A DNA stretch of 64,000 bases, taken from contig CP114121.1 in NCBI GenBank assembly GCA_029959195.1, positions 1,426,001 through 1,490,000 on the forward strand, given 5' to 3'. This DNA comes from Dictyophora rubrovolvata (taxonomy: Eukaryota > Basidiomycota > Agaricomycetes > Phallales > Phallaceae). A program made the position numbers and the translations under genes. Below, in pieces: positions 55,374-59,446 of this stretch. The notes under the pieces are model-generated. The model saw only the letters and a list, made by a program, of their open reading frames with translations, had not been told where the DNA came from and ran no database searches. Numbering within the stretch: the first letter of the stretch is position 1; each line of letters opens with the position of its first letter.

Positions 55374-57018
55374 ATGCTGCCCGACGATGAAGAACGGGAA
55401 CTTCCTGCTATTCAACGTGGATTGGTCGATATTTGTTTCGAAGAAGCCCAGTACGAGTTTGGTATTGACGTTCTGACTAGCTTGTGCAGTTCTCGTTATA
55501 AGCCACCTCCGTACGTATTGCTCACATTCCCCAACTTGAGGTACTATGTATAAGCGTCATCTAGGCTTCACATTCGACAGCTCGTTTATATATCACTATA
55601 TCCCCCTCCCCCGCTTTTGCAAACCTCGAACTCTAATATGAACACCAATGACCTTCCTGACACCATATCCTCTCCTCACAGAATCCGGCCACCCAAGGAT
55701 GATGTTTGGCCGAAACCATCTGCTCGAGAGAAGGCCCTGGCTCTGCTTCGATCATATGTCAATATAAATTCACCAAGTTCGCTAATGCGAGCATTCCCAT
55801 TCTATCGTTATGTTAATGAAGATGGAATACACGACGTCGATCCTTTCAGCAATGAGAGTCCAAACGAGAAGTTTCACGAAGATAACACTCCCATTCGACA
55901 TGAAGTACACAAATTTCAATCTTTGAAAGACTGTTGGGAGTGCTTGAAAGATGGTTTTGTCAGAAGAAAGCAACAGGATCAGGTTTCACGCTCGAGAAAG
56001 CAACCTACTCCGACAGACATTGATGTTAAAGATGAACCAACACTCGTTGGACCACATGCGTGGTCAATCCTTGAATGGTTCATATTGATCTTTGAAAAAG
56101 ATCAGGAATTACAGAGACACAGTAGCTCAGGTATGTGTTTGCTTTTGTTCTCCTTTAAACTGACATCAATGAGTTTTCAATTTACTAGTGGCGATATCAC
56201 CTCTGTTATTGGTGCAGATCCCCCCTCCAAAGATTAAACAAGGCCCCCGGATGGGATTGGACATTCCCGTCGAGATATTTAGGGAATGCTTTGTTCCGTC
56301 GTCGAACTCGGTGGATACCTGGAATTCACACGTGACCTACAGTTATCTCACCCCAGAAAAACGGTCTGAGCTCGGAATGCGTCTTTTTTCTCTGGTAAGC
56401 AATGTTGAAATGTGACAAAGTATATTACCCTTTTCATGCTGCTATTTCTAGTTATTCAATTTAACACTCACAAATCCTCCGCTCTTACCTTCTTCTCAAT
56501 TAACGAAACGTCTTGCTATAGTATTGAGGGATTTTGAATTCGACTCCCTCAACTCCTTTTTCACAAGTTTGCGGTCGAATCAAGCCGTTTTCAAGTTAAA
56601 TGTCTTGGAAAACCTTATGACAAAAAACGAAGAAAGGACAAAGGCTCCCGTTGCAAGGGCTCGAGCAAAACCGCGAGCAAAAAATGTCGATCAAGTGCAA
56701 TTAGAAACTCTCCCAAAAGAACCAGAGCCGATTAGAGAAGCTTATATCGTACCGTCCCTTGAGCGAGTCACTTCTTTGCTTTTTTATCTTCCCATTCATG
56801 ATCAAGATGCTACTAAAATCGGTCTTATGAAATATCATCTTGTTGCGGCACTATTTGAGGCGCGAAATAATATCAATATGACGAGCTTTGATGAAGCTGT
56901 CAAGGCCGGGTATTTAGATAAAACTATTGAGGAAGGCTTCGGCAAGTCGCAGTCGATAGAGAAGTATAAACAAATCACATTAAACGTTGTGCAAGCCTGG
57001 AAAAGACAGCTACAATAA
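55374..57018 (+). CDS. Conserved fungal protein of unknown function
   Basis: Four exons: 55374-55514, 55581-56130, 56189-56394, 56452-57018, giving 487 residues with all phases consistent. The N-terminus MLPDDEERELPAIQRGLVDI looks helical. The centre has AREKALALLRSYVNI, MRAFPFYRYV and HAWSILEWFILIFEKDQE, followed by SPLLLVQIPPPK. The C-terminal half has LTKRLAIVLRDFEFDSLNSF, a basic Ala/Arg run (VARARAKPRAKN) and FYLPIHDQDATKIGLMKYHL. The pattern of regular hydrophobic helices suggests an alpha-solenoid or similar fold. No named domain is recognised. Positioned immediately upstream of RACK1 in the same orientation. Confidence 0.75.
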
Positions 57019-57256
57019 ACTACATTTTAATTATTGAACCTACCGATTTGATTGATCATCCCGTAAGTCCTGAATTCTACTAAGTGGAACCACTGGATTG
57101 TGTCGGCTACGGTTTAGCGAAATGACTCATCCGCGGACCACGCCAAATGCTGGGGCTGCTGTACATGAGGCGTGCGAGTTCTCACGAATTTCACATCTAC
57201 TTCCTTTCAGCTTTTAGCTTGTCGAGTATTTCGCTCGTCGTGTCCCACAAACTATC

Positions 57257-58537
57257 ATGTCAGAGTCTTTGCGCTATTTAGGTTCTCTTCAAGGACACAA
57301 AGGATGGATTACTGCTATAGCCACTTCTTCTGAAAACCCAGACATGATTTTAACTGCCTCAAGAGGTAGATTTTCACCCAGCTTTTGCTTGACTAGTTTG
57401 TATATTGACAATATCTCTTCAGATAAAACCATCATTGTATGGCAATTGACTCGCTCGGAAGATCAATACGGTTACCCCAAACGTATCCTGCACGGCCACA
57501 ACCACTTTGTATCTGACATTGTCATTTCTTCTGATGGCCAATTCGCTTTATCATCGTCATGGGACCATACCCTCCGACTTTGGGATTTAAACACTGGCCA
57601 AACCACGCGTCGCTTTGTGGGACATACCTCGGACGTTCTTAGTGTTAGTTTTAGTGCTGATAACCGGCAAATTGTCAGCGGTAGTCGTGACCGCACCATC
57701 AAACTCTGGAATACACTGGGTGAATGCAAGTTTGACATCAAGGAAGATGGTCACAGCGAATGGTTTGTCAGACAGTTTGTTGAGTTGTGTTTTTCGTTAC
57801 CAAACGTCATCTAGGGTTTCGTGTGTTCGCTTTAGTCCGAACGCGTCTAACCCCGTGATTGTTTCCTGTGGTTGGGACAAAGTTGTCAAGGTAAGATTGA
57901 CGGATCGATCTTTGCATTTCCACGTTTATCGCATGATGTTACTTTTATCTATTTGCTACTTCAGAGGGTTAACCCCGATGAGACCAAACTTTTTCACCAA
58001 GATCTCTGACTTTTTCTGATTTTCGTTTCGTATGTCAAGTATCGTGTGTCTGATTTTTTTGTATCAGGTTTGGGAATTATCCAAATGCAAACTCCGCACC
58101 AATCACTATGGTCATACCGGTTACATTAACACGGTTTCCGTCTCCCCCGATGGCTCATTAGCGGCGTCTGGAGGCAAAGATGGCATCACCATGTTGTGGG
58201 ACTTGAACGATAACAAGCATCTATATTCTTTGGAAGCAGGAGATATTGTGAATGCTTTGGTTTTTAGTCCTAACAGGTACTGGCTATGTGCTGCTACTGC
58301 AAGCTGCATCAAAATTTTTGACTTGGAAAGCAAGTGCGTACCTGTTACCTTTATATACCCTTTGTTGCATGCTTATGCTCCCTCAGGTTGATTGTCGATG
58401 AACTCCAAGCCGAGGACGGGGAGGGAAAGGAAGGTCGTGGCCCAGAATGTGTTTCCTTATCCTGGTCCGCCGATGGCCAAACACTATTTGCTGGATTTAC
58501 AGACAACCTTGTTCGTGTCTGGGCTGTAATAGCATAG
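57257..58537 (+). CDS. CPC2: RACK1 / Asc1 / Cpc2, seven-bladed WD40 ribosomal scaffold
   Basis: Five exons: 57257-57365, 57423-57762, 57815-57890, 58068-58333, 58387-58537, giving 313 residues, the standard RACK1 length. WD repeats are clear: [142 protein letters not shown] and [11 protein letters not shown]. It sits on the 40S head and links translation to kinase [10 protein letters not shown]. Intron 3 (57891-58067) is 177 nt, over three times the local norm, and carries a U24-like box C/D snoRNA, as in yeast ASC1. Very high confidence. Confidence 0.97.
57930..58013 (+). ncRNA. U24-like (snR24) box C/D snoRNA in RACK1 intron 3
   Basis: Within the long RACK1 intron: a C box ATGATGT (57933-57939), first guide TATTTGCTACT (57950-57960) followed by a degenerate D' (TTCAGA), a C'-like CGATGAG (57976-57982), second guide CACCAAGATCT (57995-58005) and a D box CTGA (58006-58009). 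Both guides are exact complements of neighbouring stretches of the universal large-subunit rRNA sequence, AGATCTTGGTG and AGTAGCAAATA, the region served by U24 in yeast and human. In S. cerevisiae snR24 also lies in the intron of the RACK1 orthologue ASC1. The terminal stem is weak, and the ends given here are approximate. Confidence 0.85.
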
Positions 58538-58697
58538 TTCGATACAAAAATCCTATGGTGCTTCGGCACCATTCCCTTACTTTATCTTAATGACCCCAGG
58601 GCGCCGTTGATACACAGTTCCTTTATGAAATGGTATTATATGTTTTGAAATTGTGCAATAAACATTGAATGGTACAGAACGTCGAAAAATCTATATC

Positions 58698-59446
<749 letters not shown>

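Follow-up and report, generated by a model that had tools for sequence, protein, structure and literature searches.

The third intron of the RACK1 gene of Dictyophora rubrovolvata very probably encodes a functional U24 (snR24/SNORD24) box C/D snoRNA (probability about 0.95), which, as judged from its sequence, most likely directs 2'-O-methylation of the fungus's own rRNA. The gene lies in the window, the whole 64-kb stretch of DNA that was analysed. Its relevant features are given below; 25S positions refer to L013, the rDNA copy on contig C2 (G000:C2:2622000-2627500).

57257-58537, + strand: RACK1/ASC1/Gib2 host gene (splice model and translation; PDB match; genome search).
57891-58067, + strand: RACK1 intron 3, 177 nt, phase 0, after codon 175 (between KVVK and VWEL), GTAAGA...ATCAG.
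57928-58013, + strand: predicted mature U24-type box C/D snoRNA with approximate ends, placed by an RF00069 match of 31.1 bits.
57933-57939, + strand: C box AUGAUGU, its letters equal to the Rfam SNORD24 consensus.
57948-57961, + strand: D' guide UCUAUUUGCUACUU, 14 nt, complement of own 25S AAGUAGCAAAUAGA (L013:2756-2769).
57962-57965, + strand: D' box CAGA, three of the four letters of CUGA; UUGCUACUUCAGA occurs in a yeast SNR24 qPCR primer.
57966-57976, + strand: short GGG...CCC hairpin of the predicted intron fold, lying between D' and C'.
57975-57981, + strand: C' box CCGAUGA, five of the seven letters of RUGAUGA; GAUGA is aligned to the Rfam consensus GaUGAcA.
57992-58005, + strand: D guide UUUCACCAAGAUCU, 14 nt, complement of own 25S AGAUCUUGGUGAAA (L013:2744-2757).
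58006-58009, + strand: D box CUGA; the reverse primer for yeast SNR24 contains the complement of TCACCAAGATCTCTGA (16 nt).
58050-58054, + strand: likely branch site CTGAT, the closest to the 3' splice site among five branch-like motifs of the intron.

According to the splice model and its translation, the host gene is complete within the window, with five exons (57257-57365, 57423-57762, 57815-57890, 58068-58333 and 58387-58537) coding for 313 amino acids plus the stop codon TAG at 58535-58537. Its assignment to RACK1, made beforehand from the letters of the DNA, is borne out by the protein comparison: the best match in the PDB is Gib2 (4d6v, 596 bits), a Cryptococcus protein. The next two PDB entries, at 545.5 and 542.3 bits, are presumably the Chaetomium and Neurospora orthologues; mammalian RACK1 follows at 539 bits, and 3frx, which we take to be yeast Asc1, scores 349 bits. 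This ranking, the letters of the 5.8S/ITS2 region and an intron pattern like that of Flammulina all point to a basidiomycete. A search of the 28.2-Mb genome at E 1e-20 returned three matches, all of them exons of this same gene. The introns measure, in order, 57, 52, 177 and 53 nt, and the third is indeed unusually long, as had been pointed out, when set against the 52-57 nt of the other three. The convergent neighbour of RACK1 is represented by open frames at window positions 58698-59140 on the - strand, which we take to resemble ribosomal protein L12 (uL11).

The elements on which the sequence-only reading had based a U24-like box C/D snoRNA inside this intron, namely a C box, a D box and two guides, are all present. 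The predicted RNA is bracketed by the C box at 57933 and the D box at 58006, and the two guides end at D or D' with 14 nt each, where about 10 nt or more are expected of a box C/D guide. Two supposed irregularities take on a different meaning. The C box ends in a letter that departs from the general consensus RUGAUGA, yet this final U is that of the Rfam U24 consensus, and the D' box, previously regarded as degenerate, lies in a 13-nt stretch that the forward primer for yeast SNR24 reproduces letter for letter. Being shared with the Rfam U24 consensus or with yeast snR24, both apparent deviations are features of the family and do not indicate decay. The terminal stem, on the other hand, is poorly formed, as only two of the four pairs in the Rfam model stem are standard; such a stem beside C and D is common in box C/D snoRNAs but not universal. 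The predicted fold of the whole intron is of ordinary stability, no better than that of shuffled sequences (z 0.64). From the 5' splice site it is 37 nt to the start of the predicted RNA and 42 nt to its C box; the snoRNAs of Neurospora are described as sitting mostly 41-60 nt from that site.

The guides were compared with the fungus's own 25S rRNA, whose target region was located via the 5.8S genes. A genome search for the 27-nt conserved rRNA target, with up to two mismatches allowed, gave no match, because the own target carries four substitutions: it reads CAGAUCUUGGUGAAAGUAGCAAAUAGAC, compared with CAGAUCUUGGUGGUAGUAGCAAAUAuUC in the Rfam eukaryotic consensus, the changes being GUGGUAGUAG to GUGAAAGUAG and AAAUAuUC to AAAUAGAC. 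All four substituted letters are paired by the guides. The D guide, which abuts the D box, is a perfect 14-nt complement of its stretch in the region equivalent to yeast C1437, and the D' guide, which abuts CAGA, is a perfect 14-nt complement of its stretch in the region equivalent to yeast 1449/1450. The calculated duplexes are more stable on the own target than on the consensus, with -21.9 vs -19.0 kcal/mol for the D guide and -18.6 vs -13.6 kcal/mol for the D' guide. The claimed complementarity of both guides to adjacent 25S stretches is thus confirmed, while its length has to be corrected from 11 nt to 14 nt on the own rRNA. Between intron 3 and the 2,611 nt of own rRNA used, no match other than the two guides reaches 10 nt. 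Furthermore, among the 568 CTGA sites on both strands of the window, only the one at 58006 is adjacent to at least 12 nt of rRNA complement; the next-best sites have 11 nt.

The C2 rDNA copy and a C8 copy (L011, G000:C8:1793000-1798200) are 97.2% identical over 1,088 aligned nt, and 28 of the 31 substitutions are C>T or G>A. The dispersed C2 copy has the appearance of a duplicated unit hit by repeat-induced or deamination mutation. Relative to the consensus, a single one of the four target substitutions is itself of the G>A or C>T kind. The 25S target reads N in the C8 rDNA copies, and the outermost guide pairs in the active rDNA units could differ from those on the C2 copy. The 25S of the C2 copy is also diverged beside the U24 target, at L013:2744-2790, where changes on both sides of the next hairpin preserve its pairing.

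Applying the five-nucleotide rule, the D guide is predicted to target the C at L013:2748 and the D' guide, with D' placed at CAGA, the A at L013:2760. The two predicted targets are spaced by 12 nt, like positions 1437 and 1449 in yeast. The sequence-only reading had named two 25S cytidines, which does not agree with this C and A pair and corresponds instead to the description of human U24 (C2338 and C2352). A published table for yeast and Arabidopsis lists a C and an A, 12 nt apart, with yeast numbers two lower, and a Neurospora table likewise gives a C and an A for the two U24 sites; one yeast paper gives C1437, C1449 and C1450, at odds with the A given elsewhere. Since two adjacent nucleotides reportedly depend on yeast U24, whose C'/D' motif acted on the sixth nucleotide when placed in an artificial RNA, the G at L013:2761 would likely be methylated as well and is possibly a further target of the D' guide.

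The departure of D' and C' from the general consensus might be taken to mean that the snoRNA works through its D guide alone and leaves the D' site to another RNA, an arrangement with described counterparts in Neurospora (CD50 plus CD51) and vertebrates (U24 plus U76). Such single-guide function is unlikely, since the D' guide is perfect over 14 nt, the D' letters are those of yeast snR24, which is described as serving both regions, and neither the covariance search nor the DNA search of the genome revealed a second candidate locus.

An Rfam scan of the 64-kb window at gathering thresholds gave zero matches. In a permissive scan of positions 57000-59200 (2.2 kb), SNORD24 (RF00069) matches 57928-58013 over its full length (1-76) with 31.1 bits and E 0.011, below the gathering score of 41 bits, which is a curation threshold and not a biological feature. 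The same stretch is weakly overlapped by a second C/D family, snR61 (22.9 bits). In a genome-wide search (28.2 Mb, E of at most 10) that scored 59 of 8,941 candidates, the intron 3 snoRNA ranks first of seven matches (E 0.033), followed by one of 22.7 bits; at E 0.001, RF00069 has no match in this genome. Searching at E up to 10 also gives sub-cut-off matches in 11 of the 14 prokaryotic control genomes. The check that had been proposed, a search with the Rfam U24 covariance model, supports the locus as the best scored match of the genome, but not at the level of the gathering cut-off.

The sub-threshold score and the weak terminal stem would also suit a relic, that is, a U24-derived sequence that is no longer processed while the active copy resides elsewhere in the genome. 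This is very improbable, as no second U24 locus was found in the searched part of the genome: the other six covariance matches score 22.7 bits or lower, the D-guide core is absent, even with one mismatch, from these six 3-kb loci, and the DNA search of the genome returned the intron 3 copy only. A copy of the 9-nt D' core with one mismatch is found somewhere in the 3 kb at five of the six loci. Guides that pair without mismatch over 14 nt each, including rRNA letters that differ from the consensus, likewise argue against a relic.

Finally, chance complementarity in an intron whose length has some other cause can be practically dismissed. Single 11-nt rRNA matches are indeed common (1,868 of 20,000 shuffled introns), but this intron has a C box followed by two matches of 14 nt, which abut D or D' and pair with rRNA stretches next to each other, while any one 14-nt match arises in 28 of 20,000 dinucleotide-shuffled introns and in none of the 2,152 other 177-nt stretches of the window (overlapping, both strands).

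For a functional intron 3 U24, the route that we infer in the fungus comprises processing, protein binding and rRNA methylation. The RACK1 pre-mRNA would be spliced, the lariat debranched and the intron trimmed, with bound snoRNP proteins shielding approximately 57928-58013 from trimming. The two guides would bring fibrillarin to the neighbouring 25S stretches, where the D guide would act on the C at L013:2748 (the yeast C1437 equivalent) and the D' guide on the A at L013:2760 (the yeast 1449 equivalent), probably also on the G at L013:2761. Genes for fibrillarin, Nop and L7Ae-family proteins are present in the genome. In Fusarium, the level of a putative intronic U24 is reported to drop without the debranching enzyme, which fits a splicing-dependent processing route.

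With this finding, the host-guest pair described in yeast extends to a basidiomycete. When RACK1 is deleted or overexpressed from genomic DNA in fungi of this kind, U24 may change too. This confounding of RACK1 and U24 is described as already handled in yeast, and the Flammulina overexpression construct is described as a 1,273-bp piece from genomic DNA, equal to the stated gene length with introns. Moreover, guides that match changed rRNA letters offer a small, checkable case of guide-target co-evolution.

In viral contigs, the U24-type pattern had zero matches, and none of the seven pattern matches for the RACK1 protein was confirmed. In genome_contigs, the U24-type pattern had two matches. 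One of them, L015:6158-6224 (- strand), is a U24 snoRNA of 41.1 bits on a contig filed under a Verrucomicrobiaceae MAG, flanked by genes for a ribosomal-L9-domain protein and for replication factor A1. RACK1 was not found in the 8 kb of L015, and the whole MAG contains weak WD40 matches only (n = 9, 27-36% identity), which tell little, as this MAG is filed as bacterial; the contig is probably eukaryotic contamination. The other, L014:4843-4896 (- strand), fits the U24 pattern of guide and D box on a contig that is filed as part of a Betaproteobacteria MAG. No Rfam family reaches its gathering threshold in L014, and the match could be a divergent U24 or chance.

Yeast snR24 is among the closest known systems. 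The site of RACK1 intron 3 aligns with residue 179 of yeast Asc1, whose letters we take to be KMVK before and AWNL after the junction. ASC1 exon 1 is presumably 537 nt, which places the snR24 intron exactly at this residue, so that codon and phase would agree; on this basis, orthology of the two introns is well supported. The ASC1 intron is presumably longer, at about 273 nt vs 177 nt. The parallel to yeast ASC1/snR24 drawn beforehand is thereby sustained, also by the SNR24 primers, which have 13 nt in common with the intron 3 snoRNA around D' and 16 nt around D; the complement of UCACCAAGAUCUCUGA (16 nt) is contained in the reverse primer. In published accounts, yeast snR24 is located in the ASC1 intron.

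The wider proposal that host and guest stayed together across the Dikarya is too broad. The pairing exists in yeast and in Dictyophora rubrovolvata, but not in every member of the Dikarya: in Neurospora two U24 RNAs are described, CD50 (U24) being intergenic and CD51 (U24b) intronic. We lean slightly towards an ancestral Dikarya gene-within-gene, kept in one orthologous intron from yeast to mushrooms, with U24 moved or split elsewhere and the guides co-evolving with the diverging 25S target of the lineage. None of the literature matches listed describes a U24 within RACK1 of a basidiomycete; its joint retention here and in yeast deserves to be recorded and may already be covered in published fungal snoRNAome work. 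Fungi are known to have conserved snoRNA introns: a survey of intron-poor species emphasises those of RPL7 and NOG2, whose positions are reported as conserved in 82% and 72% of the species examined. The main text of that survey contains neither ASC1 nor RACK1, so that the RACK1-U24 pairing is neither shown nor excluded there.

Among other fungi, the Flammulina RACK1 gene Fvcpc2, accession KY815023, is described with introns of 50, 50, 177 and 48 bp, nearly the size pattern of the window gene, and the third introns of Aspergillus cpcB with 213 and 235 bp. Pleurotus ostreatus SNORD24.1 is, like the intron 3 snoRNA, a basidiomycete intronic U24, its host being given only as g3964. In Neurospora, CD50 and CD51 divide between two RNAs the same two rRNA regions that the intron 3 snoRNA addresses with both guides on one. 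Sponge U24 is reported in RPL5. Vertebrate SNORD24 resembles the intron 3 snoRNA in its C box, D guide and target region, but differs in its host, RPL7A (as described in chicken), and in its second site, a C, the A site being served by U76. The statement that vertebrate RACK1 harbours other snoRNAs is confirmed for chicken, in which GNB2L1 (RACK1) holds U95. With yeast snR24, in contrast, the intron 3 snoRNA has in common the host gene, the presumed intron codon and phase, the rRNA target regions and the identical stretches TTGCTACTTCAGA and TCACCAAGATCTCTGA, and it differs in the letters between D' and C' and in guides extended to suit its own diverged 25S rRNA.
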